Assembly (NCBI RefSeq): GCF_000092245.1
Contig: NC_014166.1
Location: 1,054,001 to 1,118,000 of the forward strand
Direction: 5' to 3'
Length of the DNA stretch: 64,000 nt
Origin: Arcobacter nitrofigilis DSM 7299
GTDB taxonomy: Bacteria > Campylobacterota > Campylobacteria > Campylobacterales > Arcobacteraceae
Each line of letters begins with the position of its first letter. Within the stretch, counting starts at the first letter, position 1. The notes beneath the pieces are model-generated. The model worked only from the letters and a program-made list of their open reading frames with translations, did not search any database and was not told where the DNA came from. The translations under genes and the position numbers were made by a program. Below are positions 3,283-62,585 of this stretch, one piece after another.

Positions 3283-4986
3283 ATGAAAATATCAAAAGAA
3301 AAATATGCTTCAATGTATGGACCAACAACTGGTGATAGATTTAGACTCTCTGATACATCTTTAATAGCTAAGATAGAAAAAGATTATACAACTTATGGAG
3401 AAGAGAGTAAGTTTGGTGGTGGTAAAACAGTAAGAGATGGTATGGCACAAAGTCCAACGGCTGTTGATGTTGCTGATTTGATTATTACAAATGCTGTTAT
3501 TATTGATTATACAGGTATTTACAAAGCTGATATAGGTATCAAAGATGGTGTAATAATAGCTATTGGAAAATCTGGAAATCCAAATCTTTGTGATGGTATT
3601 ACAGAAGGTTTAGAAATAGGAGCAAACACTGAAATATTGTCTGCTGAGGGTAAAATTATAACTGCTGGTGGTATAGATTCTCATATCCATTTTATAAGTC
3701 CTGGTCAAATTGATGTTGCACTAGCTAGTGGAGTTACTACTATGGTAGGTGGTGGAACTGGACCAAATACAGGAACAAATGCCACAACTTGTACACCAGG
3801 GGAGTGGAATATAGGTAAGATGATACAAAGTGTTGATAACTTACCACTTAACTTTGGTTTTATGGGAAAAGGAAATAGTTCTTGTAAAGAGGCTTTAGAG
3901 GTTCAAATAAAAGCTGGAGCTATGGGACTAAAACTGCATGAGGATTGGGGAAGTACACCAAAAGCTATTGATACTTGTTTAAGTGTTGCTGATGAATATG
4001 ATGTACAAGTTGCTATTCATACAGATACTTTAAATGAATCAGGTTTTGTAGATAATACAGTTGACTCTTTTAAAGATAGAACAATACATACCTTCCATAG
4101 TGAAGGAGCAGGTGGTGGACATGCCCCTGATATTATGAAAGTGGCTGGATTAGCTAATGTATTACCATCAAGTACTAATCCAACACTGCCATATACAAAA
4201 AACACTATAGAAGAACATCTTGATATGCTTATGGTATGTCATCACTTAAGTCCAAAGATTCCTGAAGATGTAAGTTTTGCAGAGAGTCGTATTAGAGGCA
4301 AGACAATTGCAGCTGAAGATGTGTTACATGACTTGGGAGCTATTAGTATCACAAGTAGCGATTCACAAGCTATGGGAAGAGTAGGGGAAGTACTTACAAG
4401 AACTTGGCAAGTGGCAGACTCTATGAAAAAACAAAGAGGTGCTTTAGATGGAGATGATGAATTAAGTGATAATAATAGAATCAAAAGATATATCGCAAAA
4501 TATACTATAAATCCAGCAATCGCTTGTGGAATAGATGAGTATGTAGGAAGTGTAGAAGTTGGCAAGATGGCTGACTTAGTTTTATGGAATAGAGCTTTCT
4601 TTGGGATAAAACCTGAGATTATTATCAAAGGTGGATTTATAGCACTTAGTATGATGGGTGATTCAAATGCCTCAATTCCAACACCTGAACCAAATATGTA
4701 TAGACCTATGTTTGGAAGTTTAGGGAAAGCCCCAGCAAAAACAAGTGCAATCTTTACTTCAAATATAGCAATTGAAGAAGGTATAAAAGAGAAACTTGAA
4801 ATCGATAAAGCTGTACTTGCTGTTAAAAATACAAGAAATATAGGTAAAAAAGATATGAAGTTAAATGACTTCATTGGAAATATTGAAGTTAATCCTGAAA
4901 CTTATGATGTAACAGTAAATGGTGAGATAATAGAGTCGAACTATGTGTCAGTAGTACCAATGGCAAAAAAATATTTTATGTTCTAG
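3283..4986 (+). CDS. ureC: Urease subunit alpha (catalytic)
   Basis: Catalytic urease subunit, 567 residues (full length; called UreB in Helicobacter). All key residues lie at the same numbers as in Klebsiella UreC: nickel ligands His134 and His136, Lys217 for carbamylation, His219, His246, His272, flap residues Cys319 and His320, and Asp360. The enzyme should be competent if its nickel centre is assembled. It sits between ureAB (one base away) and ureE (9 bases). The neighbouring allantoicase and ureidoglycolate lyase both release urea, so catabolic nitrogen supply is the likely role, although acid resistance is also possible. Confidence 0.97.
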
Positions 4987-17806: not shown

Positions 17807-18349
17807 ATGAGATATATAAAAAAAATTGTTAATATAATAAGTGTATTTTTTATAGTTATGGTTTTTATTGGATGTGAGTTTAATGAGTCATTACCCCAAA
17901 AGTTTGTAGTATTTAAAAAAGATTTAATTGGTAAATGGAAAATTATAGATAATAAAGATTATCCAATTGTAATAATTTCAAATAATAATAGAGAATATAT
18001 TTTTAAAACTTATGAAACTAATAGTGATAAATCTCAGGAAATAAGTGCTTATCTTTACGATTTAGATTATTTAAAAATACTTCAATTAAACTTTGGCATT
18101 AAAAAAAAACCTTTTTTTGGAAGATATGAGTTATTGAAGATAGATTTTTTATCAAAAGATAAAATTCTTTTAACGCATATTGATTTTGCTAAGTTTAAAG
18201 AGATAGTTGATGATTATAATAAAAGTAATAAATTAAAAAAATATGATTATGCAGATGTACCTAGTAGTTTAATTTATAAATTGATTAAAGAAAATAAAGA
18301 TACCCTTTTTCTAAATACTAAACATGCATTATTAAAGAAAGTTGAATAG
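17807..18349 (+). CDS. Hypothetical lipoprotein
   Basis: A 180-residue protein not recognised as a known family. Residues 5-22 are hydrophobic and end in a lipobox-like FIGC (Cys23), so a lipid-anchored exported protein is likely. The mature part begins with a LIGKWKI segment reminiscent of lipocalin-like domains, but this is weak. It starts 9 bases after the HIT gene. The 0.5-kb repeat element begins about 20 bases beyond its stop. Confidence 0.6.
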   Translation: MRYIKKIVNIISVFFIVMVFIGCEFNESLPQKFVVFKKDLIGKWKIIDNKDYPIVIISNNNREYIFKTYETNSDKSQEISAYLYDLDYLKILQLNFGIKKKPFFGRYELLKIDFLSKDKILLTHIDFAKFKEIVDDYNKSNKLKKYDYADVPSSLIYKLIKENKDTLFLNTKHALLKKVE

Positions 18350-18368
18350 AGTTTTCTATTTTCTCATA

Positions 18369-18911
18369 AAAACTTAAAAGTTTTCGTTCTTCTTACTTTT
18401 TGATCTCGAAAAAGTAAGCAAAAAAGACTGCCGAATTGATGAAGGCAAAGCTACCTTCCATTTATATATTTATTTCCTGCCCTGCAAAACTCACTAAAGA
18501 GTGCATTTAGCACTCTTCTTAACGCTCAAACAGTTTCGGGCTTTACCGAAAATAAATATCTAACTTCCAGCTTCATCAAAGGCAGAAAGAAAAGACAATA
18601 GTTTTAACTGCTAGTTTATAAAGTAATATATAGACACCAAATAATATTACTACATCTACAGAAGCCGAACGTTTATTTTTCTCTTTTCTAAACAAGATTG
18701 GTAACTGTCTGAGTGTTTAAAAGTTCCTAAATGGAAGTTTTAATAAACGAGTTTTACCAATCAGAAAAGATAAAAATAATAAGTGAGGGAACCCGAAGGG
18801 CTTCGCAGCCGTAGTTGCTTTTGCTTACTTTTCGTCAATACATGCGGGAACGAAGTGACTAAATCCTGAAAGGTAAAAGTAAGAAAGCGGAGAGGTTTAC
18901 CTCTTCAAGAG
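18369..18911 (+). repeat. Dispersed 0.5-kb structured noncoding element, copy 1
   Basis: This gene-free stretch is homologous along its length to 62073-62585, same orientation. Conserved parts: hairpin CTTACTTTTTGATC..AAAAAGTAAG; a long-range stem CTGCC-GAA-TTGATGAAG (18428-18444) with CTTCATCAA-A-GGCAG (18571-18585); a hairpin at 18497-18517 and one at 18724-18736 that covary with copy 2; TTTCGG-GCTTTA-CCGAAA; GATTGGTAA (18696-18704) with TTACCAATC (18754-18762); and an outer TTATTTTT-x-TCTTTTC pairing. The left end is a different palindrome (AAAACTT..AAGTTTT) from copy 2, and 33 extra bases (18843-18875) lie in the right terminal hairpin. No ORF of note. A structured RNA or a nonautonomous mobile element. 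Confidence 0.85.
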
Positions 18912-27192: not shown

Positions 27193-27951
27193 CTAATATA
27201 CTGACATATCATTTAGTCTAGATTCACAAACTGATTTCTTTAGCTCATATTTGATAAGAATATCATTTATAAGTTTTTTAAACCAAAGTGGAGAAGATGG
27301 AGAAAGATGTATTTTTTCAATTAGTGAATTTAAATCTACATTAATATACTTACCTAAAGTACCATGACTTTCTAAAATAGTTTCTCCTTTCTTCTTCATG
27401 TACATAGTTTGAAGGACTAGTCTAACTTCTTCTTCATGTTTATAAGACATACCTTTGGAAGTAAAAGGGCTCATTACAGAAGAGAAAGAGTTTTTTTCAG
27501 TATTATAATCTAAATATGAAACTTCACTAATAAAAATATTAGTGGAAGGATTTACTAAAATGCTATTAATTAATTTAGTATAGGTTGTTTCTATTGCAAT
27601 AGCTTCTGGTACTTTTGAATACAACTTCCACATGGCATCAGATTCATATTCATTTTTATGCCAACAATTAATAAAAGTAAATTCTTTTATATGATTACAA
27701 AAATACCTTGTTGCCTCTATACCTTCGTTTTTAATTATGTTTTTTGTATTTTTTTCATTGTTGATTGTAAACATTTCGAGAAGTAGTTTGGAAGAGAGAT
27801 GACCCTCATATATATCTGGAAATTTATCTGAACGCGAAAAATATAATTGAGAAGTAGTTATTAATGACATGAATTTTGAAAAGTCCATGTATCTCCACAA
27901 TTTACAATCTTTATCTTCAGGCTGTTTATCAAAATCTGTTATAACTGGCAT
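27193..27951 (-). CDS. DUF2971-family protein
   Basis: A 252-residue protein with the DUF2971 hallmarks: LWRYMDFSKFMSLI near the N-terminus, FSRSDKFPDIYEG, FINCWHKNEYESDAMWKLYS in the middle and YKHEEEVRLVL later. The biochemical role of this family is unknown; members are frequent in mobile and defence-related regions. Its ribosome site (AAGG) is clear. It is divergent from a phage-type repressor, beside a dead adenine methylase, supporting an accessory origin. Confidence 0.75.
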   Translation of the reverse strand: MPVITDFDKQPEDKDCKLWRYMDFSKFMSLITTSQLYFSRSDKFPDIYEGHLSSKLLLEMFTINNEKNTKNIIKNEGIEATRYFCNHIKEFTFINCWHKNEYESDAMWKLYSKVPEAIAIETTYTKLINSILVNPSTNIFISEVSYLDYNTEKNSFSSVMSPFTSKGMSYKHEEEVRLVLQTMYMKKKGETILESHGTLGKYINVDLNSLIEKIHLSPSSPLWFKKLINDILIKYELKKSVCESRLNDMSVY

Positions 27952-27970
27952 ATGTAACCTTATTTTATTA

Positions 27971-27983
27971 TATAATTATATTA
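27971..27983 (+). promoter_or_regulatory. -10 box adjacent to repressor start; probable leaderless promoter
   Basis: TATAAT (27971-27976) lies six bases before the repressor ATG, at the position where transcription should begin. No Shine-Dalgarno is present. A leaderless transcript is inferred. The -35 region would fall over the start codon of the divergent DUF2971 gene, so the repressor could control both. Confidence 0.5.
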
Positions 27984-28630
27984 TGCAAAATTATAACGAA
28001 ATCATCGAAAAACTAAAAGACATACTATCTCAAGAGCATGGCAATAAAAAAGTATTAGACAAAGATGTTGCAGCAGCTCTTGGAATAGAAGAGACAAACT
28101 TCAGAAAACAAAAGCACCGTAATAGTATCCCATATTTTGAGATTATGAGCTTCTTAGCTAAAAGGAATATATCTATCAATTGGTTCTTCTTTAACCAACT
28201 TCCTGAGTCTCTGATTGAATCTACATCAAATTATATAATACTGAAGTATCAAAGAACTGTTACAGCTTCAGCTGGAGGTGGAGCTATAAACTATGAACTT
28301 GACTCAACTCCACTTGTAATAGATAAACAACTGCTAGACCATATTAATAGCAGATACAAATATACTGAAGTAATAAAAGTATTTGGTGAGTCCATGGAAC
28401 CTGATATAAAAGATGAAAGCCTAGTTTTTATAGACAAGAGTAAAACAGATATAAATAGTACAGGTGTATATCTAATCAATACAAATGATGGCTTATATAT
28501 TAAATGTATTAAAGTAGAAAATGATAAAGTTATTCTAAAATCAAACAACCAAGCTTTTGATGATATAACATTACATATAGATGATGTGGATATTGTTGGT
28601 AGAGTTTGTGGTGTGTTAGTAAAGGTATGA
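27983..28630 (+). CDS. Phage CI-type repressor, S24 peptidase family
   Basis: A 215-residue LexA/CI-like repressor. The N-terminal 75 residues form a CI-type DNA-binding domain (DKDVAAALGIEETNFRKQK; ISINWFFFNQ). The C-terminal domain has the S24 autocleavage pair Ser137 (FGESMEPDI) and Lys174 (GLYIKCIK). An A-G scissile candidate is in TASAGGGAI. Start chosen at ATG 27983; the upstream open frame overlaps the divergent gene and has no family similarity. Likely a remnant of a prophage switch or a stress-responsive regulator of the neighbouring accessory genes. Confidence 0.85.
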   Translation: MQNYNEIIEKLKDILSQEHGNKKVLDKDVAAALGIEETNFRKQKHRNSIPYFEIMSFLAKRNISINWFFFNQLPESLIESTSNYIILKYQRTVTASAGGGAINYELDSTPLVIDKQLLDHINSRYKYTEVIKVFGESMEPDIKDESLVFIDKSKTDINSTGVYLINTNDGLYIKCIKVENDKVILKSNNQAFDDITLHIDDVDIVGRVCGVLVKV

Positions 28631-28631
28631 A

Positions 28632-29240
28632 ATGGAACTAAGTGAATGTATTTCAATGACTAAAGATATAATTGTAGCACTTGCCGCAGTATCAACAGTT
28701 ATTATAGCCTATATGGGTCTCAATAAGTGGAAAGCTGAATTAAAAGGGAAAGTTTATTTTGATACTGCAAGAAATTTAATTAAAGTAGTTTATAAGGTTA
28801 GAGACCAAATAAGACTCGTAAGAAGTTCTTTTATGTTAGATTATGAATTTCCTTCAGATTATAATCCACTAGATAAAAATGCTGAGAAAAAAGCAAATGC
28901 ATATGTATATCTTTATCAAAACAGAATGAAACCTTTGCGTGATTCACTGCAGGAATTAGATGTCTATGTACTTGAATATGAAGCACTTTGGGATAATGAT
29001 ATTAAAGAAAAAGCTAAGAAATTAAGTAATTTATTTTTTCAGTTAGAAAGTTCTATAAAAATGTATATTGAAGATGTTCGTACAAATGGAGAATTTTTCA
29101 GAAAGAATGAAAAATTAGAGATTGAAATATGGAATAATATACATGAATCACTCAAACAGGACGATATGTTATCCCTAGAAATAAATAATAGTATTACTGA
29201 AATAGAAAAAATAGTAAGACCTCATTTAGATAATAGTTAA
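28632..29240 (+). CDS. Membrane-anchored hypothetical protein
   Basis: A 202-residue protein starting one base after the repressor stop, so probably co-expressed with it. Residues 11-28 are one membrane helix, followed by a cytoplasmic helical domain with conserved-looking AYMGLNKWKAELKGK and RDQIRLVRSSF segments. I know similar proteins as uncharacterised, phage- or island-associated. It marks the end of the accessory stretch before the ribosomal promoter. Confidence 0.6.
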   Translation: MELSECISMTKDIIVALAAVSTVIIAYMGLNKWKAELKGKVYFDTARNLIKVVYKVRDQIRLVRSSFMLDYEFPSDYNPLDKNAEKKANAYVYLYQNRMKPLRDSLQELDVYVLEYEALWDNDIKEKAKKLSNLFFQLESSIKMYIEDVRTNGEFFRKNEKLEIEIWNNIHESLKQDDMLSLEINNSITEIEKIVRPHLDNS

Positions 29241-29309
29241 ATAGAATATATTAATTTTGTTTATGAAATGTAAGTAAAATAAGCATGACAAAACCTTTTC
29301 CTTGAGGTG

Positions 29310-29366
29310 TTAACATTTCATAAGCAAATAATTAACATTTCAAAAGCCGTTTTACAGCCGTTTTAC
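29310..29366. repeat. Short direct repeats before the S10 operon
   Basis: TTAACATTTCA occurs at 29310-29320 and 29332-29342, and AGCCGTTTTAC occurs twice in tandem at 29345-29366. The rest of 29241-29592 holds the ribosomal promoter and no gene. The repeats could be regulatory or remnants of an insertion junction; nothing decides. Confidence 0.6.
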
Positions 29367-29497
29367 AATTTAAGATGCATAAAATAGTTTTTATTAGTTA
29401 AACTTCCATTTAACTTAATATATATCAAAAAAAAGCATAGTTATCCTTTTAAAAAGGAAATAAATATAGTAATTAATGATATGAAGACCCATATATA

Positions 29498-29526
29498 TTG
29501 ACATTGTATAAGAAAAAAGTTATAAT
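29498..29526 (+). promoter_or_regulatory. Sigma-70 promoter of the S10-spc operon
   Basis: TTGACA (29498-29503), exactly 17 bases, then TATAAT (29521-29526): consensus at both boxes, followed by GC-rich GCGCG and a 66-base leader to rpsJ. A strong constitutive promoter for the ribosomal operon. Confidence 0.9.
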
Positions 29527-29592
29527 GCGCGTCCATGAAAAATGGTTAGAGTGTGTTTATCGCACATTTAACGAGTTCTTTAAAGGAAAAAA

Positions 29593-29907
29593 ATGGAAAA
29601 AATAAGATTAAAGCTTAAGGCTTACGATCACAGAGTTTTAGACAGAAGTGTTGCTTCAATTGTTGAAGCTGTTAAGAGAACTGGTGCTGAGTTGAGAGGT
29701 CCTATACCTTTACCAACTAAAATCAGAAGATATACAGTAATCAAAGGTCCTCACGTAAATAAAGATTCAAGAGAACAATTCGAAATCAGAGTTCATTCAA
29801 GAATGATTGATATCGTATCTGCAACTCCTGATACAGTAGATTCATTAATGAAACTTGACTTAGCTCCTGAAGTTGATGTTGAAGTTAGATCTATGGGTCA
29901 AGAATAA
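29593..29907 (+). CDS. rpsJ: 30S ribosomal protein S10
   Basis: S10, 104 residues, of the 30S head; in E. coli also the antitermination factor NusE. Full-length match: [17 protein letters not shown] at the start and [14 protein letters not shown] in the tRNA-facing loop. First gene of the S10 operon, with AAAGGAAAA as ribosome site. Confidence 0.97.
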
Positions 29908-29920
29908 GAAAGGGTAACAA

Positions 29921-30496
29921 ATGGAATTTATCGTAGAAAAAATTGGTATGAGTAGAACTGTTTCAGTTCCTGCTGTTCCTGTTACACTTTTAAAAGTTCT
30001 TGATACAAAAGTATGTGAAGTAACTGATGGTGTAGCAATTGTATCATATAGTAATGGTAAGAAATTTAACAAGACTATAGAAGGGCAACAAAAAAAATAC
30101 AACTTATCTAAAGAGTTCAATAGATTTGCAACTATGGAAGTAGCAAATTCTGAAGCTGGAGATTTAGATGTATCTGGATTAGCAGAAGCTAAAATTTTAA
30201 AAACTACTTTTAAAACTAAAGGTAGAGGTTTCTCTGGTGCAGTTAAAAGATGGAACTTTGCTGGTGGTAGAGCATCACATGGTCATAGAATGGGAAAAAG
30301 AACTGGTTCAATCGGTAATGCTGAGTGGCCAGGTAGAGTTCAACCAGGTAAAAAAATGCCAGGACAATACGGAAATACAAATGTAAGTGTTAAAAATGAA
30401 ATTTTCTCTTTTGATGCAGAAACTGGTATTTTAGCTGTTAAAGGTTCAGTATCTGGACCAAATGGTGGATTAGGAAAAGTAAGGATTGCTAAATGA
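29921..30496 (+). CDS. rplC: 50S ribosomal protein L3
   Basis: L3, 191 residues, an early 50S assembly protein near the peptidyl-transferase centre. The [10 protein letters not shown]-type loop and [18 protein letters not shown] are diagnostic. It overlaps rplD by 4 bases. Confidence 0.97.
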
Positions 30497-31080
30497 GTAA
30501 TGCAGTAGTAGTAAAAACAAGTGAATTACCTGAAACATTTAAAGATGTTAATTCACATAACTTATACTTATATGTAAAATCATACCTAGCAGCTCAAAGA
30601 GCAAACACAGCTAGAGTAAAAAACAGATCTGAAGTTAGAGGTGGTGGTAAAAAACCTAAAGCTCAAAAAGGTTCTGGTGGTGCAAGATGGGGTTCTAAAA
30701 GATCACCATTATTTGTTGGAGGTGGACAAGTATTTGGACCATCTGCAAGAAATTACAATCAAAAAATAAACAAAAAACAAAAAGTATTAGCATTAAGATT
30801 TGCTATTAATACTCATGTTGAAAAAGAGTCTTTATTTGTAGTTGATTCTGTTACATTAGAATCAGGTAAAACTAAAGATGCAGTTGCAGTTATAAATGGA
30901 TTAAACCAAAGAGATACTTTAATCATCGTTGATACAATTGATGAGAAAACTTACTTAGCGTATAGAAACATTAAGAACTGTTATATGATTGAAAAACAAG
31001 AAGTAAATGCTTATATCGCAGCTGCTTATCACTCAATCTTAGTTGAGAAGTCAGTTCTTGAAGCATTAAAAGAGGCATAA
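30493..31080 (+). CDS. rplD: 50S ribosomal protein L4
   Basis: L4, 195 residues, lining the exit tunnel. The extended loop [20 protein letters not shown] and [12 protein letters not shown]-type segment identify it. In E. coli L4 represses its own operon through the S10 leader; the 66-base leader here is short, and I see no evidence for that control. Confidence 0.97.
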
Positions 31081-31081
31081 G

Positions 31082-31363
31082 ATGGCAGATATTACAGATA
31101 TTAAAGCAATATTATACACAGAAAAAACTATTGAGTTACAAGAAAGTGGTGTAATCGTTGTTCAGACTAGTCCTAGAATGACTAAAAGCGGATTAAAAGA
31201 TGTTTTTAAAGAATATTTTGGAGTTACACCTTCAAAAGTTAATTCATTAAAACAAAGTGGTAAAGTTAAAAGATTTAGAGGGAAAATTGGTAAAAGAGCT
31301 GATTTCAAAAAATTCTATGTAACATTACCTGAGGGCGCTGAAATAGCGAACCTTTCAGCATAA
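31082..31363 (+). CDS. rplW: 50S ribosomal protein L23
   Basis: L23, 93 residues, at the tunnel exit where trigger factor and SRP dock. Conserved [10 protein letters not shown] at the N-terminus and [19 protein letters not shown]-like basic loop. One base after rplD. Confidence 0.96.
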
Positions 31364-31372
31364 GGGGATAGT

Positions 31373-32200
31373 ATGGCAATTAAAAAATTTAGACCAATAA
31401 CTCCTGCTAGAAGATTTATGTCAGTTATGGATACTTCTGATATTACTTCAAAACCAACAGTTAGATCTTTACTTACAAGAGTAAAAGCTACAGCTGGTAG
31501 AAATAGTAATGGTAGAATCACTTCAAGACATAGAGAAGCAGGTGCTAAAAAACTTTACAGAATTATCGATTTCAAAAGAGATAAATTTGGTGTAGAGGGT
31601 ACTGTTTCTACAATTGAGTACGACCCATATAGAAACTGTAGAATCTGTTTAGTAACTTATTCAGATGGTGATAAAAGATATATTTTACAACCAAGTGGTT
31701 TAAAAGTTGGAGCAAAAATCTCTGCTGCTGAATCTGGTTTAGATATTCTTCCTGGAAATGCAATGAGACTTGTTAATATTCCAGTTGGTACTATGGTTCA
31801 TAATATTGAAATGAAACCAGGAAAAGGCGGTCAAATCGCTAGATCTGCTGGTGGATATGCTCAAATTATGGGTAGAGAAGATAAATATGTAATTATGAGA
31901 CTTCCTTCAGGTGAAATGAGAAAAATTCTTGCTGTTTGTATGGCAACTATTGGTATCGTTGGTAATGAAGATTTCTCTAACATGGTTGTTGGTAAAGCTG
32001 GTAGAAGTAGACACCTTGGAATTAGACCTCAAACTAGAGGATCTGCAATGAATCCAATTGATCACCCACACGGTGGTGGTGAAGGTAAAACTAACTCAGG
32101 TAGACATCCAGTTACTCCATGGGGTATGCCAACTAAAGGTTATAAAACTAGAAAGAAAAAAGCTAGTGATAAATTAATCATTTCAAGAAAAAAGAAGTAA
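31373..32200 (+). CDS. rplB: 50S ribosomal protein L2
   Basis: L2, 275 residues, required for subunit joining and peptidyl transfer. The [16 protein letters not shown] motif and the [14 protein letters not shown] loop near the C-terminus, with the functionally important His, are intact. Confidence 0.98.
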
Positions 32201-32209
32201 GGGTTTAAG

Positions 32210-32488
32210 ATGTCAAGATCAGTAAAAAAAGGTCCATTTATAGACGCGCACTTAATGAAAAAAGTTATCAAAGCAGTTGAGACTAAAGATAGAAAACCAA
32301 TTAAAACTTGGTCAAGAAGATCAACAGTTTTACCTGATATGATTGGCTTAACTTTTAATGTGCACAATGGAAGAAACTTCGTACCTGTAAATGTTACAGA
32401 GAACCACGTGGGTTATAAATTAGGTGAATTTGCACCAACTAGAACTTTTAAGGGTCACAAAGGCTCTGTTCAGAAGAAGGTAGGATAA
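32210..32488 (+). CDS. rpsS: 30S ribosomal protein S19
   Basis: S19, 92 residues, in the 30S head. Starts [19 protein letters not shown] and contains [17 protein letters not shown] and GHKLGEF-type ([16 protein letters not shown]) motifs. Confidence 0.97.
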
Positions 32489-32489
32489 G

Positions 32490-32822
32490 ATGGGTAAAGC
32501 TATATTAAGATTTATTAGAGTTTCTCCAATTAAAGCAAGACTTATTGCTAGAGAAGTTCAAGGTATGAATGCAGAGTATGCTATTGCATCTTTAGAATTT
32601 ACACCTAACAAAGCTGCTGGATTAATTTCAAAAGTTATTGCTTCTGCAGTTGCAAACTCTGGATTAGAAGCTGAAGATGCAGTTATTACATCTGCAAGAG
32701 TTGATAAAGGTCCAGTATTAAAAAGATTTACTCCAAGAGCAAGAGGTTCTGCTTCTCCAAAGCATAAGCCAACGGCACATATTTTTATTGAAGTAGAAGC
32801 TGCACCTAAAGGAGATAAGTAA
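32490..32822 (+). CDS. rplV: 50S ribosomal protein L22
   Basis: L22, 110 residues, with a long beta hairpin in the exit tunnel. [19 protein letters not shown] and [20 protein letters not shown] are diagnostic. Overlaps rpsC by one base. Confidence 0.97.
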
Positions 32823-33520
32823 TGGGTCAAAAAGTTAATCCAATTGGTTTAAGATTAGGTATCAATAGAAACTGGGAATCAAGATGGTTTCCTAAATTCT
32901 CTTCTATGCCTGCTAATGTTGCAGAAGATAGCAAAATTAGAAAATTCGTTAAAAAAGAGCTTTACTATGCAGGAATCGCTCAAACTTTAATCGAAAGAAC
33001 AGCAAAAAAAGTAAGAGTAACAGTTGTTGCTGCAAGACCTGGTATCATTATTGGTAAAAAAGGTGCAGACGTTGAGAAATTAAAAAATTCTTTAACTAAA
33101 TTAGTTGGTAAAGAAATTGCTGTAAACATTAAAGAAGAGAGAAAACCACAACTTTCTGGTCAATTAGCTGCTGAAAATGTTGCTCAACAATTAGAAAGAA
33201 GAGTTGCATTTAGAAGAGCTATGAAAAGAGTTATGCAAAATGCTATTAAAGGTGGAGCAAAAGGAATTAAAGTTTCTGTTTCTGGTAGACTTGGTGGAGC
33301 TGAAATGGCTAGAACTGAGTGGTACTTAGAAGGAAGAGTTCCTTTACATACTTTAAGAGCTAGAATTGATTATGGTTTTGCTGAAGCACATACTACATAT
33401 GGTTGTGTTGGTGTAAAAGTTTGGATTTTCAAAGGTGAAGTACTTGCTAAAGGTATTCCAGTTGAAAAAGAAGAAGCTGCTAAACCAAAAAGAAGACCAA
33501 CAAAGAAAAGAGGTAAATAA
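32822..33520 (+). CDS. rpsC: 30S ribosomal protein S3
   Basis: S3, 232 residues, at the mRNA entry site. KH domain with [17 protein letters not shown] and the C-terminal [16 protein letters not shown] and [14 protein letters not shown] motifs; a basic C-terminal tail. Confidence 0.98.
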
Positions 33521-33522
33521 TT

Positions 33523-33948
33523 ATGTTAATGCCTAAAAGAACAAAATATAGAAAAGTAATGAAGGGGCGAAATAGAGGTAAATCTATGAGAGCCAACACA
33601 TTAGCATATGGAAATATTGGAATTAAAGCTTTAGAGCATGGTAGAATTGATTCAAGACAAATTGAAGCTGCCAGAATTGCTATGACAAGAGCTATTAAAA
33701 GACAAGGTAAAGTATGGATTTGTGTATTCCCAGCTAAACCACTTACTGCAAAACCATTAGAAACAAGAATGGGTAAAGGTAAAGGTCCAGTTGACAAATG
33801 GGTAATGAACATTAAGCCAGGTAGAATTTGTTTCGAGATGGCTGGTGTAAGTGATGAAGTTGCTAGAGTTGCATTGACTTTAGCAGTTCACAAATTACCA
33901 TTTAAATGTAAAATTGTAACAAAAGAGAGCGAAAATGACTTATTCTGA
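33523..33948 (+). CDS. rplP: 50S ribosomal protein L16
   Basis: L16, 141 residues, near the A-site t[22 protein letters not shown] at the start supports ATG 33523 over the next Met. The motif [13 protein letters not shown] is typical. It overlaps rpmC by 14 bases. Confidence 0.97.
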
Positions 33949-34126
33949 TATTAAAGATAAAAGCCTAAACGAGCTAAACGAGTTATTAAAAGAGAAAAAG
34001 GTGCTTCTTTTTGAATTAAAAGCTAAGCTAAAAACTATGCAGTTGACTAATACATCTGAATTAAATGTTGCGAAAAAAGATATCGCAAAAATTCAAACAG
34101 CTATTACTGCAGTAAAAGCTAAGTAA
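33935..34126 (+). CDS. rpmC: 50S ribosomal protein L29
   Basis: L29, 63 residues, a two-helix protein next to L23 at the tunnel exit. [22 protein letters not shown] fits the family. Its start overlaps the end of rplP, indicating coupling. Confidence 0.94.
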
Positions 34127-34137
34127 GGATCTGTAGT

Positions 34138-34392
34138 ATGAGTACGCATAAAAGAGAGATTCAAGGTGTAGTGGTAAAAGTTTCTGGAGATAAAACTGCT
34201 TCTGTTTTAGTAACAAGATCAGTATTACATCCTAAATACCACAAAACTGTTAAGAGATTTAAAAAATATTTAGTTCATGATGAAAAAAATGAATTAGCTG
34301 AAGGTGATACTGTAATTGCGATTGAGTGTAGACCTTTATCTAAGACTAAATCTTTTAGATTAAAGACAATTGTTGCTACAGGAGTTAAATAA
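34138..34392 (+). CDS. rpsQ: 30S ribosomal protein S17
   Basis: S17, 84 residues, OB-fold 16S rRNA-binding protein. [21 protein letters not shown] and [19 protein letters not shown] are diagnostic. Overlaps rplN by one base. Confidence 0.97.
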
Positions 34393-34760
34393 TGATTCAA
34401 AGTTTTACTAGATTAAACGTAGCAGACAACACAGGTGCAAAAGAGATCATGTGTATCAAAGTTTTAGGTGGTTCTAAAAGAAGATATGCAACAGTTGGTG
34501 ACGTTATCGTTGCTTCTGTTAAAAAAGCTATTCCTACTGGAAAAGTTAAAAAAGGTCAAGTTGTTAAAGCTGTTGTTGTTAGAACTCACAAAGAAGTTCA
34601 AAGAGAAAATGGTTCATTAATCAGATTTGATGATAATGCAGCAGTTATTCTTGATGCAAAAAAAGAACCAATTGGAACAAGAATTTTTGGACCAGTTGCT
34701 AGAGAAGTTAGATATTCAGGTTTCATGAAGATCGTTTCACTTGCACCGGAGGTATTATAA
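34392..34760 (+). CDS. rplN: 50S ribosomal protein L14
   Basis: L14, 122 residues, at the subunit interface. [22 protein letters not shown] and the C-terminal GPVAREVR[15 protein letters not shown] are hallmark segments. Confidence 0.98.
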
Positions 34761-34761
34761 T

Positions 34762-35001
34762 ATGGCGGTTAAATTAAAAATTAAAAAAGGTGATACAGTT
34801 AAAATCATCGCAGGTGATGATAAAGGTAAAACTGGTGAAGTTTTAAGAGTTATCCCATCTAAATTACAAGTTATTGTAAAAGATTGTAAAGTTGCTAAAA
34901 AAACTGTAAAACCTGATCAAGACAAAAACCCTAATGGTGGTTTTGTAAACAAAGAGATGCCAATTGATATCTCTAATGTAGCAAAAGTAGAAGGTGAGTA
35001 A
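34762..35001 (+). CDS. rplX: 50S ribosomal protein L24
   Basis: L24, 79 residues, an assembly initiator. [20 protein letters not shown] is the KOW motif. ATG 34762 is chosen: GGAGGT lies about 10 bases upstream and it starts just after the rplN stop, whereas the longer open frame overlaps rplN. Confidence 0.95.
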
Positions 35002-35002
35002 G

Positions 35003-35551
35003 ATGGCGAACAGATTATACGAAAGATATAACGCAGAGATTAAACCAGCTTTACAAAATGAGTTTCCTAAAAACAAAATGTTAACTGCTAAGTTAGAAAA
35101 AGTAGTTATCTCTGTTGGTGCTGGTGAAGCAATGAAAGATACTAAATTGATGCAAAATATTCAAGATACTATCTCTTTAATTGCAGGACAACATGCAATC
35201 CAAATTATTGCTAAAAAATCAGTTGCTGGTTTTAAAGTAAGAGAAGGGATGCCAGTAGGTGTAAAAGTTACACTTAGAGGTGAAAACATGTACGCATTCG
35301 TTGACAAATTATGTTCTATTGCATTACCTAGAGTAAAAGATTTCCAAGGTTTAGATAGAAATGGTTTTGACGGAAGAGGAAATTTTAACTTTGGTCTTAA
35401 TGAGCAATTAATGTTTCCAGAAGTTGTTTACGATAACATTATTAAAACACATGGTATGAATATTTCTATTACTACATCTTCAACTTCTGATAAAGAAGCT
35501 TATAGATTATTAGAGTTAGTAGGAATTCCATTTACAAAAGGTAGAGAATAA
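35003..35551 (+). CDS. rplE: 50S ribosomal protein L5
   Basis: L5, 182 residues, holding 5S rRNA in the central protuberance. The [12 protein letters not shown] and RVKDFQGL motifs fit. ATG 35003 (MANRLYERY) is preferred over in-frame GTG 34994 because AAGGTG precedes it. Overlaps rpsN by one base. Confidence 0.96.
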
Positions 35552-35736
35552 TGGCTAAGAAATCTATGATTATGAAACAACAACGAACTCCTAAGTTCGC
35601 TGTTAGAGCATACACAAGATGTTCAGTATGTGGAAGACCACATTCAGTTTACAAAGACTTTGGTCTTTGTAGAATTTGTTTAAGAAAAATGGCTAACGAA
35701 GGTTTATTACCTGGTGTTAGAAAAGCTAGTTGGTAA
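35551..35736 (+). CDS. rpsN: 30S ribosomal protein S14, zinc-binding type
   Basis: S14 type Z, 61 residues, with the zinc knuckle [20 protein letters not shown] (C-x2-C...C-x2-C). The short zinc form, not the 101-residue C-minus form. Position between rplE and rpsH is standard. Confidence 0.97.
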
Positions 35737-35748
35737 GGAAATAAAGCT

Positions 35749-36147
35749 ATGATGAATGATATAATCGCAGATGCTTTAACTAGAATTAGAAATGCAGCAT
35801 TGAGAAAACTTGAAGTTACTACTTTGTTACATTCTAATACGGTTGTAGGTATCCTAACAGTATTAGAGGCAAAGGGTTACATTGACTCTTTTAAAGTTGT
35901 TGATGGAACTAATAATAAAAAAACTATTCAAGTTACATTAAAATATGATGAAAAAGAAACTTCTGCAATCAATGAGATTAAAAGAGTTTCTAAATCAGGA
36001 AGAAGAGTTTATAAAGCTTCTTCTGAGTTGAAAAATTTCAAAAACGGATATGGTACAATCATTGTTTCTACAAACAAAGGTGTTATCGCTAACGATGAAG
36101 CTTATGCTGCAAACGTTGGTGGTGAAGTACTGTGTACTGTTTGGTAG
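35749..36147 (+). CDS. rpsH: 30S ribosomal protein S8
   Basis: S8, 132 residues, a primary 16S rRNA binder and, in E. coli, the regulator of the spc operon. [14 protein letters not shown] at the start and the C-terminal GGEVLCTVW motif. Start is ATG 35749 or the adjacent ATG 35752. Confidence 0.97.
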
Positions 36148-36158
36148 GGAGTTAGATA

Positions 36159-36695
36159 ATGTCAAGAATTGGAAAACAACCTATTGCTATACCAGCAGGT
36201 GTTGAAGTAACAGTTGATGGTACAGTTATAAACGTAAAAAAAGGTAACAAGACTTCTTCAGTAGAGACTCACGGTAGAGTTTCTGTAGAAATTGCAAATA
36301 ACACTGTAGTTTTAGCAAGAGTTGGTGAAACAAAAGAATCATCAGCTTTCTGGGGAACATATAGAGCTTTATTAAACAATGCTATTGTTGGTTTAAGTGA
36401 AGGTTTCAAAAAATCTTTAGAAATCAACGGTGTTGGTTACAGAGCTGCTGTTAAAGGTAGTGTTTTAGAACTACAATTAGGTTATTCTCACCCAATTAAC
36501 TATGAAATCGCTGATGGATTAGAAATTACTGTTGAGAAAAATGTGATTAATGTTATTGGTGCTGACAAACAACAAGTTGGTCAAGCTGCTGCAATTATTA
36601 GAGGCTTTAGAAAACCAGAACCTTACAAAGGTAAAGGTGTTAAATATACTGATGAGCATATCATCAGAAAAGCCGGAAAAACTGCTAAGAAGTAA
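36159..36695 (+). CDS. rplF: 50S ribosomal protein L6
   Basis: L6, 178 residues, near the factor-binding site. [27 protein letters not shown] and [16 protein letters not shown] are diagnostic. Confidence 0.98.
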
Positions 36696-36705
36696 GGTGT
36701 AAAGA

Positions 36706-37065
36706 ATGAGTAGAGCAAAAGATATAGCTAAAAAAAATTCTTTAAGAATTAAAAGAAAAAGAAGAGTAAGAGGATCAATTTCTGGTACTGCTTCTAAGCC
36801 AAGAGTTTCAATTTTTAAATCAAACAAATATTTAAGTGCGCAAGCAATTAATGATGTTGAGGGTGTTACACTGGCTTCGGTTAGTTCAAAAGCATTGGAT
36901 TTAACAGTTAATAAAGATAATGCAGTTAAAGTTGCAGCACAGTTTGCTGAAAATTTGAAAGCTGCTGGGATTGATACAATCGTATTTGATAGAAATGGTT
37001 ACCTATATCACGGTGTTATTGCTGCATTTGCACAATCACTAAGAGATAATGGTATCAAATTATAA
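36706..37065 (+). CDS. rplR: 50S ribosomal protein L18
   Basis: L18, 119 residues, binds 5S rRNA with L5. [16 protein letters not shown]-like strand ([18 protein letters not shown]) and [23 protein letters not shown] are typical. Confidence 0.97.
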
Positions 37066-37071
37066 GGGTTA

Positions 37072-37518
37072 ATGATGGCAGCAGTAAATAGAGAAGATTT
37101 TCAAGAAGCAATCGTTAAAATCGGAAGAGTAACAAAAGTTGTAAAAGGTGGTAGAAGATTCAGATTTACAGCTTTAGTTGTTGTTGGAGATAAAAACGGT
37201 ACTGTAGGTTTTGGTATGGGAAAAGCTAAAGAAGTTCCAGACGCTATTAAAAAAGCTTTAGATGATGCATTTAAATCTTTAGTAAAAGTGTCTATTCATG
37301 GAACTACAATTGCACATGATATTGAGCATAAATATAATGCTTCTAAAATATTATTAAAACCAGCATCTGAAGGTACAGGACTTATCGCAGGTGGTGCGGC
37401 AAGACCTGTTCTTGAGCTTTCTGGAGTTAAAGATATTATCGCAAAATCTTTAGGTTCAAATAATCCTAACAACTTAGTGCAAGCTACAGTTGAAGCTTTA
37501 GCTAGAATAAAAGGATAA
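37072..37518 (+). CDS. rpsE: 30S ribosomal protein S5
   Basis: S5, 148 residues, a fidelity protein at the mRNA entry. [18 protein letters not shown] and [21 protein letters not shown] are diagnostic. ATG 37072 and ATG 37075 are adjacent. rplO follows directly; rpmD (L30), normally between them, is absent. Confidence 0.98.
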
Positions 37519-37521
37519 TAA

Positions 37522-37920
37522 ATGACATTAGAAACTTTAAGACCAGCAGATGGTAGTACAAAGAATGTTAAAAGAGTTGGAAGAGGACAAGGTAGTGGTA
37601 CAGGTAAAACTGCCGGTAAAGGTAACAAAGGTCAAAAAGCTAGATCTGGTTACAAAATAAAAAGAGGTTTTGAAGGTGGGCAAATGCCAATCCAAAAAAG
37701 ACTTCCTAAAATCGGTTTTGTATCAAGAGTAACTAAACCTTATTCAATTAATGTTGATAAAGTTAAGCAAGTTGCTGAGTTAAGTGAAATTACATTAGAA
37801 ACTATTAGATCTGTGTATAAATTATCAAAATCAGTAACAAAAGTTAAACTAGTTGGATCTTGTGCAAAAGATTTAACTTCTAAGATCAAAGATGAAAACG
37901 TTACTACAACTGGTAAATAA
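37522..37920 (+). CDS. rplO: 50S ribosomal protein L15
   Basis: L15, 132 residues, a late 50S assembly protein. The glycine-rich [21 protein letters not shown] and [15 protein letters not shown] motifs identify it. Two bases before secY. Confidence 0.97.
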
Positions 37921-37922
37921 CC

Positions 37923-39185
37923 ATGAGTAAAGATCTAATAAATAAGATTCTTATTACATTAGGTTTTATATTTCTATACAGAGTATTGGCATACGTGCCA
38001 GTACCTGGTGTAAATATTGACGTAGTAAAAGAATTTTTCGACTCAAATGCAAACAATGCATTAGGTCTTGTTAATATGTTTAGTGGAAATGCAATCTCAA
38101 GATTGTCTATTATTTCACTAGGTATTATGCCTTACATTACAGCTTCAATTATAATGGAGCTTCTAGCCGCAACTTTCCCTGCACTTGGTAAAATGAAAAA
38201 AGAACGTGATGGTATGCAAAAATATATGCAAATTATCAGATATGCAACTATTGTAATTACTTTAATACAAGCAGTTGGTGTATCAATGGGTCTTAATTCT
38301 TTAACTGGAAAAGCAGGTCAAAGTGCAATCACTATAGATATGGATACATTTGTTGCAGTTTCTGCAATCTCAATGTTAACTGGTACTATGCTTTTAATGT
38401 GGATTGGTGAACAAATCACACAAAAAGGTATAGGTAATGGTATTTCATTAATTATCTTTGCTGGTATTGTTTCTGCAATTCCTCATGCAATTGGTGGAAC
38501 TATTGAATTAGTTAATAATGGACAAATGAACTTCTTAACTGTTATTGCAATTTTAGTAATTATTTTTGCAACAGTTGGGGCGATTATTTATGTAGAACTA
38601 GGAGAAAGAAGAGTTCCTGTTTCTTATTCTAGAAAAGTTATGATGCAAAGTCAAAATAAAAGAGTAATGAATTATATTCCTATTAAAGTAAATTTAAGTG
38701 GTGTAATTCCTGCAATTTTTGCTTCTGCAATTTTAATGTTCCCGGCTACAATTTTACATGGTAGTCAAAATAAAATTTTATTAGCTATTGCTGACTTTTT
38801 AAGTCCAACTAGTTATACATTTAATGTTTTGATGTTTTTACTTGTAGTTTTCTTTGCATATTTTTATGCATCAATTACTTTTAATGCAAAAGATATTTCA
38901 GAAAACTTAAAAAAACAAGGTGGTTTTATTCCAGGTATTAGACCAGGAGAAGGAACAGCTGAGTTTTTAAATGAAACAGCAGGTAGATTAACACTATGGG
39001 GAGCTTTATACTTAGGAGCAATCTCTACAGTGCCATGGCTTTTAGTTAAGTCTATGGGTGTTCCTTTTTACTTTGGTGGAGTTGCAGTACTTATTGTTGT
39101 TCAAGTTGCTATTGATACTATGAGAAAAATTGAAGCTCAACAGTATATGAACAAGTATGATACCTTAAGTGCGGTTGGTTTATAA
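37923..39185 (+). CDS. secY: Preprotein translocase subunit SecY
   Basis: SecY, the membrane channel of the Sec translocon, 420 residues with ten membrane helices. LGIMPYITASIIMELL near the plug, and the cytoplasmic loop ELGERRVPVSYSRKVM and KKQGGFIPGIRPGEGTAEFL contact SecA and the ribosome. Encoded in the ribosomal operon as usual. Confidence 0.98.
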   Translation: MSKDLINKILITLGFIFLYRVLAYVPVPGVNIDVVKEFFDSNANNALGLVNMFSGNAISRLSIISLGIMPYITASIIMELLAATFPALGKMKKERDGMQKYMQIIRYATIVITLIQAVGVSMGLNSLTGKAGQSAITIDMDTFVAVSAISMLTGTMLLMWIGEQITQKGIGNGISLIIFAGIVSAIPHAIGGTIELVNNGQMNFLTVIAILVIIFATVGAIIYVELGERRVPVSYSRKVMMQSQNKRVMNYIPIKVNLSGVIPAIFASAILMFPATILHGSQNKILLAIADFLSPTSYTFNVLMFLLVVFFAYFYASITFNAKDISENLKKQGGFIPGIRPGEGTAEFLNETAGRLTLWGALYLGAISTVPWLLVKSMGVPFYFGGVAVLIVVQVAIDTMRKIEAQQYMNKYDTLSAVGL

Positions 39186-39190
39186 AAATC

Positions 39191-39949
39191 ATGGCAATTT
39201 CATTAAGAAAACAAAATGAGATAGAAAAGCTTCGAACTGCTTCGCATGCAGTTGGAAAGACTTTAAATTATCTAAGAGAAAACGTTAAACCAGGCATGAC
39301 TTTAATAGAAGTTGATGCTCTGGGTGATGCTTTCATAGCCAGTTTAGGTGCTAGACCTTCATTTAAAGGCCTTTATGGTTTCCCTAATGCAGTATGTACT
39401 TCTCTAAATGAAGTTGTAATTCATGGTATACCATCAAATACAGTTATACAAGAGGGTGATATTTTAGGTTTAGACATAGGTACTGAAATTGATGGTTGGT
39501 ATGGTGATGCTGCCATTACTATGCCTGTTGGAAAAATATCAAAAGAGGATGAGGATTTAATTGCTTGTTCGAAAGATGCATTATATTATGCTATTGATAT
39601 TATAAAAGAAGGTATGAGATTTAAAGAGTTATCTTTTGCAATAGAGCAATTTATTGTAAACAGAGGATATCAACCGTTAATAAGATTCTGTGGACATGGT
39701 ATAGGAAAAAAACCCCATACTGAACCTGAAATTCCAAATTATGTAGAAACTCCAAATATTAAATCAGGTCCAAAAATAAAAAATGGAATGGTATTTTGTT
39801 TGGAACCAATGGTTTGTCAAAAAGATAGAGAACCTATCATTTTAGACAATGGTTGGGATGTTGTATCAAAAGATGGATTAAGAACTAGTCATTATGAACA
39901 TACAGTCGCTGTTATCAATGGAAAAGCAGTGATTTTAAGCGAGGCATAG
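39191..39949 (+). CDS. map: Methionine aminopeptidase, type I
   Basis: Removes N-terminal Met from new proteins. 252 residues of the type Ia pita-bread fold. The metal ligands are visible in [17 protein letters not shown] (two Asp), [12 protein letters not shown] (His), CLEPMV (Glu) and the C-terminal HYEHTV (Glu). Located between secY and infA, five bases after secY. Confidence 0.97.
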
Positions 39950-39960
39950 AAGGAAAAAAT

Positions 39961-40182
39961 GTGGCAAAAGATGATGTAATTGTAATTGACGGTAAAGTTA
40001 TTGAAGCTTTACCAAATGCAATGTTTAGAGTTGAATTGGATAATAATGGACATGTAGTTTTATGTCATATATCTGGAAAAATGAGAATGCACTACATAAA
40101 AATTTTACCTAACGATAAAGTTAAAGTAGAAATAACACCTTATTCACTTGATAAGGGTAGAATTACTCACCGATATAAATAA
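39961..40182 (+). CDS. infA: Translation initiation factor IF-1
   Basis: IF-1, 73 residues, OB-fold: [18 protein letters not shown]-like segment and [25 protein letters not shown] start at 39961 with AGAAGGAAAA upstream. It is the last gene of the operon; a strong terminator follows, so rpmJ, rpsM, rpsK, rpsD, rpoA and rplQ are encoded elsewhere. Confidence 0.97.
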
Positions 40183-40187
40183 CAAAG

Positions 40188-40220
40188 AAGAAAGTATTTG
40201 ATTAATACTTTCTTTTTTTT
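40188..40220 (+). terminator. Intrinsic terminator of the ribosomal operon
   Basis: A perfect 11-bp stem (40188-40198 with 40204-40214), loop TGATT and a run of T to 40220, six bases after the infA stop. Confidence 0.9.
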
Positions 40221-40282
40221 AGCTTACCTTAATTACTTACTGATATAATCATTTAAATATATTTATTTATTATTGGAAAAAA

Positions 40283-41401
40283 ATGGAAGAAAATATTAAT
40301 AATCTTGATCAATTAGAAAATGATAAAAAGGCTAAATCTAGTTTTATATCTCATGATTTACTTATTTCTACAAAATCTGAACTTCAAAATATTGAAATAC
40401 TAAAATTTATTACTTATTTACCAGAACTCTTAAAACCTTCAATCGAACAATCAATTTATCATAAAATAGAAGAAGTCGTATTTGAGTTGATGAAAACTCC
40501 TGAAAAGCTTGATGATGAGTCAATGATTAATAAATTGATAAATATTACTAATGAAAGAGTAGATTTAGATAGAGCTGTTTTCAAATCGAAATCTGAAGAT
40601 ATTAAAAAATTTATAGCATTACTAATGAAAGAGTATGAAAATAGCTTACTTCTTAGTGATAACTCTTCATCAAAATTAGAAATTTTTAAAAATGATTTAG
40701 AAAGTTTGGAAATATCAGAACACTCAAATAGGGAGTTAAGAATATTGCATGCAAAACTTGCTGATTTAATATACAATATTGAAACTAATTTAGATGACTC
40801 AAAAGTTCAGTTAAAAAAGGGCAAGGAAACTTGTTCTAAATTAGAAAAAAATATTGTTAAATTACAAGATGACTTAGAAAAACTAAAAATAGAAAAAGAC
40901 ATTGACTTTTTGACAGGAGCTTTGAATAGAAGAGGATACACTTCAGTAATTTTAAAAGTTGAAAATCGTTTTGTTACTTTTAATTCTAATTATGCAATCA
41001 TATTTATTGATATTGATAATTTTAAAGAGATAAATGATGAAAATGGTCATGAATGTGGTGATGTTATATTAAAAAGTTTTTCTACTATACTTAAAAAACT
41101 TATGAGAGAAGAAGATGTTTTATGTAGATATGGTGGAGAAGAGTTTGTTATTCTTGTAAGTTATACCGAGGAAGAAGAAGTATATAAATACATAAAAAGA
41201 GTAAAAGAAATAATTGATAGTCATAAATTTATTTATAATAAAGATCTTAGAGTAAAAGTAGGCTTTTCTGCGGGAGTTGCTTATAGAACAAAATATAATT
41301 CATATGAAGATGCAATGAAATATGCTGATATTTTATTATATAAAGCAAAACATGAAGGGAAAAGTAGAATTATATTTGATAATTCTAAAGTTTTAGTTTA
41401 A
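40283..41401 (+). CDS. Diguanylate cyclase (GGDEF)
   Basis: A 372-residue cytoplasmic protein. Residues 15-200 are an unassigned helical sensor region ending in a coiled coil (about 165-205) that could dimerise it. The catalytic domain follows: DFLTGALNRRG, IDIDNFKEINDENGHECGD and active-site GGEEF (284-288). An R-E-E-D inhibitory I-site (275-278) lies exactly five residues before it, so product inhibition by c-di-GMP is expected. The signal sensed is unknown. Confidence 0.93.
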   Translation: MEENINNLDQLENDKKAKSSFISHDLLISTKSELQNIEILKFITYLPELLKPSIEQSIYHKIEEVVFELMKTPEKLDDESMINKLINITNERVDLDRAVFKSKSEDIKKFIALLMKEYENSLLLSDNSSSKLEIFKNDLESLEISEHSNRELRILHAKLADLIYNIETNLDDSKVQLKKGKETCSKLEKNIVKLQDDLEKLKIEKDIDFLTGALNRRGYTSVILKVENRFVTFNSNYAIIFIDIDNFKEINDENGHECGDVILKSFSTILKKLMREEDVLCRYGGEEFVILVSYTEEEEVYKYIKRVKEIIDSHKFIYNKDLRVKVGFSAGVAYRTKYNSYEDAMKYADILLYKAKHEGKSRIIFDNSKVLV

Positions 41402-60903: not shown

Positions 60904-61424
60904 ATGGAAGAACTAGTAATAGAGATAATAAATTCAAAGATATATACAATACGTGGTGAAAAAGTTATGTTGGATAGAGATTTAGCACAGTTTTATGATG
61001 TTGATACAAAAGTTCTTAATCAAGCAGTTAAAAGAAATATTGAAAGGTTTCCAGAAGATTTTATGTTTCAACTTTCTAAAGAAGAATTTGATGATTGGAG
61101 GTCACAATTTGTTACCTCCAAAAATGATAAGATAGGTTTAAGAAGAGCACCATATGCATTTAGTGAGCACGGAATATTAATGCTTTCATCTGTTCTTCGT
61201 AGTAAAACTGCAATAGAGGTAAATATACAAATTATGAGAACTTTTGCAGCACTACGAAGATATGCTTTGACCTATGATGAACTTGCTAAAAAAATAGAGC
61301 AGATTGAATCAAGAGTGAGAGAAGGGAAAAAACTGATAATAGGATTATTGAGGTTTTGAATGAGTTGATGAGGGAGGATAGTAATAATGGGGATAGGAAG
61401 ATTGGGTTTGTCAATAATCAATAA
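60904..61424 (+). pseudogene. ORF6N-domain gene with C-terminal frameshift
   Basis: The ORF6N domain (GEKVMLDRDLAQFYDVDTKVLNQAVKRN, RFPEDFMFQLS, APYAFSEHGILMLSSVLRS) of phage anti-repressor-like KilA-N/ORF6N proteins is intact to about residue 142. Then a run of six A (61326-61332 region) shifts the frame; the original tail, DNRIIEVLNELMRED to GFVNNQ, continues in another frame to a stop ending at 61424. Removing two A restores it. The shortened 151-residue form may still be made. Confidence 0.75.
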
Positions 61425-61447
61425 TGATGTTTTAAAGGAGTTTAATT

Positions 61448-62072: not shown

Positions 62073-62585
62073 CTCTTGAAGAGGTAAACCTCTTCGCTTT
62101 TCTTACTTTTTGATCTCGAAAAAGTAAGCAAAAAAAGACTGCCGAATTGATGAAGGCAAGCTCCCTTTCAGTTATATGTTTATTTTCTGCCCTGCAAAAC
62201 TCACTAAAATGACCGTTTAGGTCATTTCTTAACGCTCAAACAGTTTCGGGCTTTACCGAAAATAAACATCTAACTTCCAGCTTCATCAAAGGCAGAAAGA
62301 AATACCTATAGTTCAAATTCTTATTTATAAAGTAATATATAAACACCAAATAATATTGCTACATCTACAGGAGCCGAGCGTTTATTTTTCTCTTTTTGAA
62401 ATAAGATTGGTAACTGTCTGAGTGTTTAAAAGTTGCTAAACGCAAGTTTTAATAAACGAGTTTTACCAATCAGAAAAGATAAAAATAAAAAGTGAGGGAA
62501 CCTTTGGCTTCGCAGCCGTAGTTGTTTTTGCTTACTTTTCGTCAATACAAAAGTAAGAAAGCGGAGAGGTTTACCTCTTCAAGAG
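62073..62585 (+). repeat. Dispersed 0.5-kb structured noncoding element, copy 2
   Basis: Second copy of the element at 18369-18911, in the same orientation, 18 bases after the ORF6N pseudogene. Its ends are inverted repeats: 62073-62110 against 62549-62585, built from GAAGAGG-TAAA-CCTCTTC-type palindromes and CTTACTTTT. Internal: long-range stem (62139-62155 with 62281-62295), hairpin AAATGACC-GTTTA-GGTCATTT (62207-62227), hairpin TTGC-TAAAC-GCAA (62433-62445). The loops and flanks match copy 1 while the stems differ in compensated positions. The rest of 62586-62837 shows nothing I can support. Confidence 0.88.

Follow-up and report, generated by a model that had tools for sequence, protein, structure and literature searches.

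Two inverted module pairs lie in the window

In the window, a stretch of 64,000 nucleotides from the genome of Arcobacter nitrofigilis DSM 7299, a HIT-family gene and an accessory gene are followed by a 0.5-kb element, and a second copy of this element lies to the right of ORF6N-domain gene fragments (Table 1). The two copies align end to end (18363-18911 and 62073-62585). Both had been located by the initial annotation, and its bounds could be kept except that copy 1 truly starts at 18363 and not at 18369. Each copy consists of two homologous modules of ~222 nt, here named M, in inverted orientation. The right half, once reverse-complemented, aligns to the left half over the full length, with the helices kept and the sequence different. 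Since a copy is an inverted pair, which the initial annotation had missed, the two halves of one copy covary with each other. A 38-bp terminal match, found in inverted orientation in copy 2 and in other elements, represents terminal inverted repeats, as in MITEs of DDE transposons.

Table 1 Features of the two copies of the element and of adjoining genes in the window
Feature	Position	Strand	Basis
Accessory gene, 180 aa, between the HIT-family gene and copy 1; a different gene there in other species	17807-18349	+	hot-spot comparison
Copy 1, left module M(+)	18363-18585	+	nhmmer module profile, L001 1495-1717; CM R1 154.6 bits on core
Terminal hairpin HP-A, copy 1 (AAAACT TAAA AGTTTT)	18369-18384		sequence; HP-A columns covary
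Hairpin HP-B, copy 1 (CTTACTTTTT..AAAAAGTAAG)	18392-18418		sequence; covariation
Folded core of M(+): P1/P1b (18428-18444 with 18571-18585) enclosing P2, P4, P5 and apical hairpin	18428-18585	+	covariation
Apical hairpin P6, copy 1, stem AAGAGTGC/GCACTCTT	18497-18517	+	pairing retained in many variants of the stem
Copy 1, right module M(-), reverse-complement homologue of the left module	18650-18911	-	nhmmer L001 2043-1782; CM R1 111.9 bits
Apical hairpin of copy 1 M(-), inner part	18724-18736	-	sequence; module alignment
ORF6N-domain gene fragments left of copy 2, in tandem, apparently decayed; PADLOC candidate PDC-S05	60904-62054	+	
Copy 2, left module M(+)	62073-62295	+	nhmmer L008 1489-1711; CM R1 138.7 bits
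Terminal hairpin HP-A, copy 2 (GAAGAGG TAAA CCTCTTC); inverted repeat of the same at the right end	62078-62095		sequence; TIR matches
Apical hairpin P6, copy 2, stem AAATGACC/GGTCATTT	62207-62227	+	sequence
Copy 2, right module M(-)	62359-62585	-	nhmmer L008 2001-1775; CM R1 116 bits

The compensatory changes described earlier between the two copies were found again in the sequence. The apical stems P6 of copies 1 and 2 differ in four pairs, all of which are still paired, and in the second hairpin (18724-18736 and 62433-62445) a C-G pair has become G-C. The long-range stem of 14 bp is formed by 18428-18432 and 18436-18444 pairing with 18571-18579 and 18581-18585. Elsewhere in the window, a match to the Rfam family of the 5' ureB sRNA lies at 3431-3712 on the minus strand, antisense inside an ORF that is apparently a urease gene, and in the region 27869-41401 small collinear genes form a run behind a gene for a CI-like repressor. 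A prophage in the latter region was unsupported, with almost no PHROGs matches.

M forms a multicopy family in Arcobacteraceae

The element had been described as present in two copies, which proved wrong. A DNA search of the 3,192,235-bp genome returned 48 matching places, and the covariance model of the module core gave 40 module matches, 37 of them strong; ~15 tight inverted pairs were among them, besides four modules that clearly stood alone. The same type of search detected M in 42 of 104 Arcobacteraceae genomes, with up to at least 28 matches per genome, and the named records carrying the motif belong to Arcobacter, Aliarcobacter and Malaciobacter. In a draw of 298 genomes of the phylum, one convincing match was obtained outside Arcobacteraceae (E 2.4e-12), together with a handful of marginal ones. 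This match (G272, L379 4744-7759), from another family of the phylum, is a single module beside AAA-ATPase and UvrD-like genes resembling Gabija. Another genome (G030, L373 7080-8355; also L372 and L374-L378) has M-like modules on the flanks of rRNA operons and also a threefold tandem repeat spaced by 559 bp.

The collected elements comprised 66 tight pairs, M(+) and then M(-), and 39 solitary modules. Spacers in the tight pairs were mostly 50-126 nt, and the ends of the 66 pairs are defined by CTC(A/T)TGAA...TTCAAGAG. Modules were up to 99% alike between different loci of one genome, a likeness that could stem from gene conversion. They were also 96-98% alike at non-orthologous loci of congeners, of which the flanks were ~86-94% alike. 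No M was found in the plasmid and phage collections searched. Candidates from a loose pattern scan of viral contigs were not upheld by the module profile.

The initial annotation did not recognize the family, and Rfam gave no match at gathering score and nothing meaningful at a lax E-value. Our search of the literature on Arcobacter repeats, defence cassettes and REP elements found no description of M, and passages retrieved from the A. nitrofigilis genome paper mention repeats only as one CRISPR (PMC3035288).

M keeps a fold of nested helices through paired changes

When 169 distinct modules were aligned, the strongest covarying pairs after APC correction were nested, with z up to 19.6, and they outlined the terminal hairpin, the second hairpin, P1, P1b, P2, P4, P5 and the apical hairpin. 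At the column pair 64-216, for example, TA occurred 77 times, AT 65 times and CG 18 times, while wobble pairs numbered 0. Dozens of complementary variants of the apical stem exist, with short loops that often read ATTTA. Folding of the module cores as single-strand DNA gave z of -3.7 to -4.7. This nested covariation and the folding scores uphold the claim that the structure is more than chance repetition.

The 22 columns with the best pairing comprise 3569 cells, of which 3376 were Watson-Crick, 31 G-T and 82 A-C. These counts are biased, since well-paired columns were selected and relatedness among the sequences makes them non-independent. On a tree, the same columns showed ~161 independent changes from one Watson-Crick pair to another and 66 origins of G-T or A-C mismatches. 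Selection on a folded structure of the single-strand type is thus strongly supported; further copies whose differences break pairing as often as they keep it were sought and not found. The mismatch origins were divided into 19 G-T and 47 A-C (p = 0.0008), whereas tRNAs of the same loci, used as a control, had 18 G-T and 4 A-C in 276 pairs. An RNA made from the M strand should have the wobble pattern of the tRNAs. This pattern was absent, which leaves DNA as the substrate or a fold of the opposite strand. Selection therefore looks to be at the DNA level, or on the opposite strand. The initial proposal of selection on "RNA or single-strand structure" stands for the folded structure, while the wobble pattern argues against the M strand itself as RNA.

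M borders defence genes 3' of core genes

M was located 3' of core genes, which were named by reading their translations, and its inner side borders exchangeable cargo; the solitary modules also have accessory genes on their inner side. The same hot spots recurred from genus to genus, with other genes next to the module. Behind the HIT-family gene, the 180-aa gene and the pair are found in the window, and an AbiZ-like gene and a pair in the congener G002. At this hot spot a kinase gene was found in G020 and G110, other genes in G107, G098 and G109, and nothing in G106 and G108. The element of G109 (L125 1350-3142) is split by an IS110-like gene. Similar series were observed after nrdB, radC, guaB, secF, valS and others. 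Many cargo genes aim their 3' end at the inner side of the module, 13-60 nt away, and several (TIR, RM, OLD, SEFIR) face away from M. At L057, a complete type I RM system (hsdM, hsdS, hsdR) is enclosed by two modules that share one rare terminal-hairpin allele, and this unit sits between radC and a ThiF-like gene. Another module pair, at L163, brackets two small genes.

The cargo was compared with PADLOC and also with Pfam. In a hand-picked sample of flanks with sizeable ORFs, which includes one locus with no detectable module (L126) and one outside a pair (L108), 18 of 25 cargo proteins matched PADLOC (E < 1e-5), compared with 1 of 10 outer neighbours, the latter weakly (Fisher p = 0.002). 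A further neighbour set from the genome of the window gave 3 of 10. The matching cargo included type I RM, type IV restriction, CAP12-type TIR, SIR2, PDC-M62AB, OLD/GajA-like and SEFIR proteins, a PD-T4-6-like kinase, AbiGi, AbiZ and AbiP/AbiC-like proteins, and KAP and DUF2971 candidates.

A further folded element of ~120 nt, N (CAAGGC..GGAGCnTAC..GTAnGTGA..AACGCAGA), was observed just 3' of core genes, near the stop codon and often opposite M (L112 577-697, L060 11477-11583, L174 6588-6709 and others). Its central stem also varies in complementary fashion. The order N-cargo-M in fixed orientation was found for 23 of 26 nearby N elements. N occurred in 48 of 347 genomes of the phylum, also where M is lacking, and beside rRNA operons in some genomes, and a reversed-pattern control was nearly empty. 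The idea of N as the second end of a mobile unit was dropped, and N is treated as an independent 3'-end element, because it is widespread across the phylum without M. Integron integrases were seen at L352, L357 and L360 (G010, G104 and G110), where guaA/guaB 3' ends carry cassette arrays with attC sites, and L339 2086-2364 is an intI fragment beside guaB in the genome of the window.

Cargo is replaced while the module is kept

Comparison of the window genome with its congener G002 showed that homology spans the outer flank and the module, breaks 0-28 nt from the inner end of the module, and resumes on the core-gene side of the cargo. At L058/L174 a TIR gene stands against an OLD-type nuclease, and at L061/L175 and L060/L176 the cargo genes differ as well, with module and outer flank retained in every case; this comparison covers three sites in two congeners. 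At the valS site, the window genome has the pair and both congeners have a 657-aa gene, a replacement and not an insertion. Homologous recombination of the ordinary kind at hot spots could also account for such cargo exchange, and M would then be a bystander.

No clean empty site was found for the pair. The one near-empty site (G001, L002) was a deletion remnant that keeps 68 nt of the module. Target-site duplications were not visible at 15 element borders of the genome of the window, and the subset of module loci read held no autonomous copy or relative with the same ends or a linked recombinase. No enzyme dedicated to M was found among the candidate classes checked. Y1/RAYT transposase did not track M over the 104 genomes, and PF01797 was absent from the M-rich G001 and G010. 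Reverse transcriptase occurred in only 3 of 8 M-rich genomes, in one as cargo beside a module pair, and all 8 had several tyrosine recombinases, none specific for M.

Discussion

The reading that we prefer, and to which we give an even chance, is that M is a folded, non-autonomous DNA recombination or transposition end that marks exchangeable defence cassettes. M would act as a DNA site in folded single-strand or cruciform form and would terminate a mobile unit that is itself non-autonomous. An "empty" 0.5-kb element would then consist of two inverted modules set ~50-130 nt apart, and at other sites the same modules would enclose or adjoin accessory genes, mostly anti-phage systems, that were inserted behind the 3' end of core genes. 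The enzyme that recognizes the folded ends would be encoded elsewhere, act in trans and move or exchange the DNA on their inner side. We infer this mobility, the acting enzyme and its chemistry from the inverted pairs with defined ends, the copy number, modules up to 99% alike, covariation with few wobbles, the bracketing at L057 and L163, cargo swaps at the module edge, the PADLOC enrichment and the N-cargo-M order. Points on the other side are the lack of target-site duplications, of an autonomous copy, of a clean empty site and of a correlated Y1, the absence from plasmids and phages, the hand-picked cargo, the 3-of-10 neighbour set, and the possibility of gene conversion or of a bystander role.

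The main alternative, which we consider somewhat unlikely, takes M for a passive or transcription-related 3'-end element (terminator or insulator) at hot spots. Homologous recombination of imported DNA between the core gene and a dispersed M would swap the cargo, and M would spread by gene conversion and hitch-hiking. In its favour, M is located just 3' of core genes together with N, and within 750 bp of copy 1 there are four terminator-like hairpins compared with 0.3 expected. The use of the same hot spots with different cargo in different genera, the M-like modules at rRNA operons of one genome, and the integrons occupying the same sites (guaA, guaB) are also consistent with it. However, one short stem suffices for a terminator, whereas M has preserved six helices across ~161 paired changes; if M acted as RNA, G-U would be expected to exceed A-C on the transcribed strand, and for M it did not; and the close likeness of modules at non-orthologous congener loci suggests real movement.

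In our judgement it is improbable that the functional molecule is an RNA from the other strand, rc(M), which would be transcribed outward to form the 3' UTR of cargo genes and would serve stability, processing or partnership with a defence system. An A-C in M is a G-U in rc(M), so the excess of A-C origins would fit, as would the many cargo genes whose 3' end points at the module; but wobble amounts to only 2.3% (82/3569 cells) compared with 6.5% G-T (18/276) in the tRNAs, and TIR, RM, OLD and SEFIR genes are among those pointing away. The inverted pair moreover carries both strands, and Rfam has no match. That M is an unusual attC-type site used by the IntI integrases of Arcobacteraceae is very unlikely. 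True integron integrases (TIGR02249 over cut-off) are present in 16 of 104 genomes and decayed in more, an intI fragment lies beside guaB-N in the genome of the window, and M is likewise a candidate folded recombination site that borders cassettes, with structure conserved over variable sequence. Yet the attC sites of Arcobacteraceae, taken from cassette arrays, are ~60-150 nt with TAACAAA...AAACGTTA, unlike M; M has no complementary RYYYAAC/GTTRRRY ends and was not found near any intI, and the M-rich G011 and G016 have no intact IntI.

Among known systems, REPINs or BIMEs are REP doublets mobilised by RAYT, that is TnpA-REP (PMC3116915, PMC2817692, PMC8266576). Like M, they are non-coding and intergenic, consist of two inverted folded units separated by a short spacer, occur in many copies and are non-autonomous, and are thought to act as folded single-stranded DNA. 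Their unit is a palindrome of 20-40 nt, whereas M has ~222 nt and six or more helices; their GTAG/CGTC tags were not noticed in the M alignments, and they need a cognate RAYT/Y1, whereas Y1 does not track M and M borders defence genes. Integron attC sites resemble M in conserving structure over sequence, in bordering exchangeable single-gene cassettes and in their 3'-end hot spots, but M is larger, comes in inverted pairs, has no TAAC/GTTA ends and no integrase linkage, and its cargo orientation is not fixed. The ends of IS200/IS605 and MITEs share subterminal hairpins or terminal inverted repeats and are non-coding and multicopy, but for M no matching autonomous element, target-site duplication or correlated Y1 was found. 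Defence hot spots and islands likewise hold variable anti-phage systems between conserved core genes; the M sites differ by a specific folded repeat at the inner edge of the variable segment, at many unrelated sites and in many genera. The module pair is thus nearest to REPINs in anatomy and nearest to integron cassette sites in position, and the tested defining features of both fail; for this reason M is assigned to the folded, non-autonomous DNA repeats.

Coming back to the reading of M as a DNA end, what surrounds M favours a mobile or recombination element over a stand-alone ncRNA: exchangeable defence genes, the inverted-pair layout and the position of the hot spots 3' of core genes. A more specific form of this reading, which we put forward tentatively, is that M may be the folded-DNA recombination site of an unrecognized cassette-exchange system that swaps anti-phage genes at core-gene 3' ends throughout Arcobacteraceae, with a role like that of attC, but with inverted paired sites.

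Covarying base pairs in an intergenic repeat are not in themselves proof of RNA, and the wobble test tells the cases apart. For the entry and exit of defence genes at hot spots without a visible recombinase, M gives a concrete handle. Its position points to new defence candidates among the unassigned cargo genes, and M offers a testable substrate for an enzyme acting on single-strand DNA.
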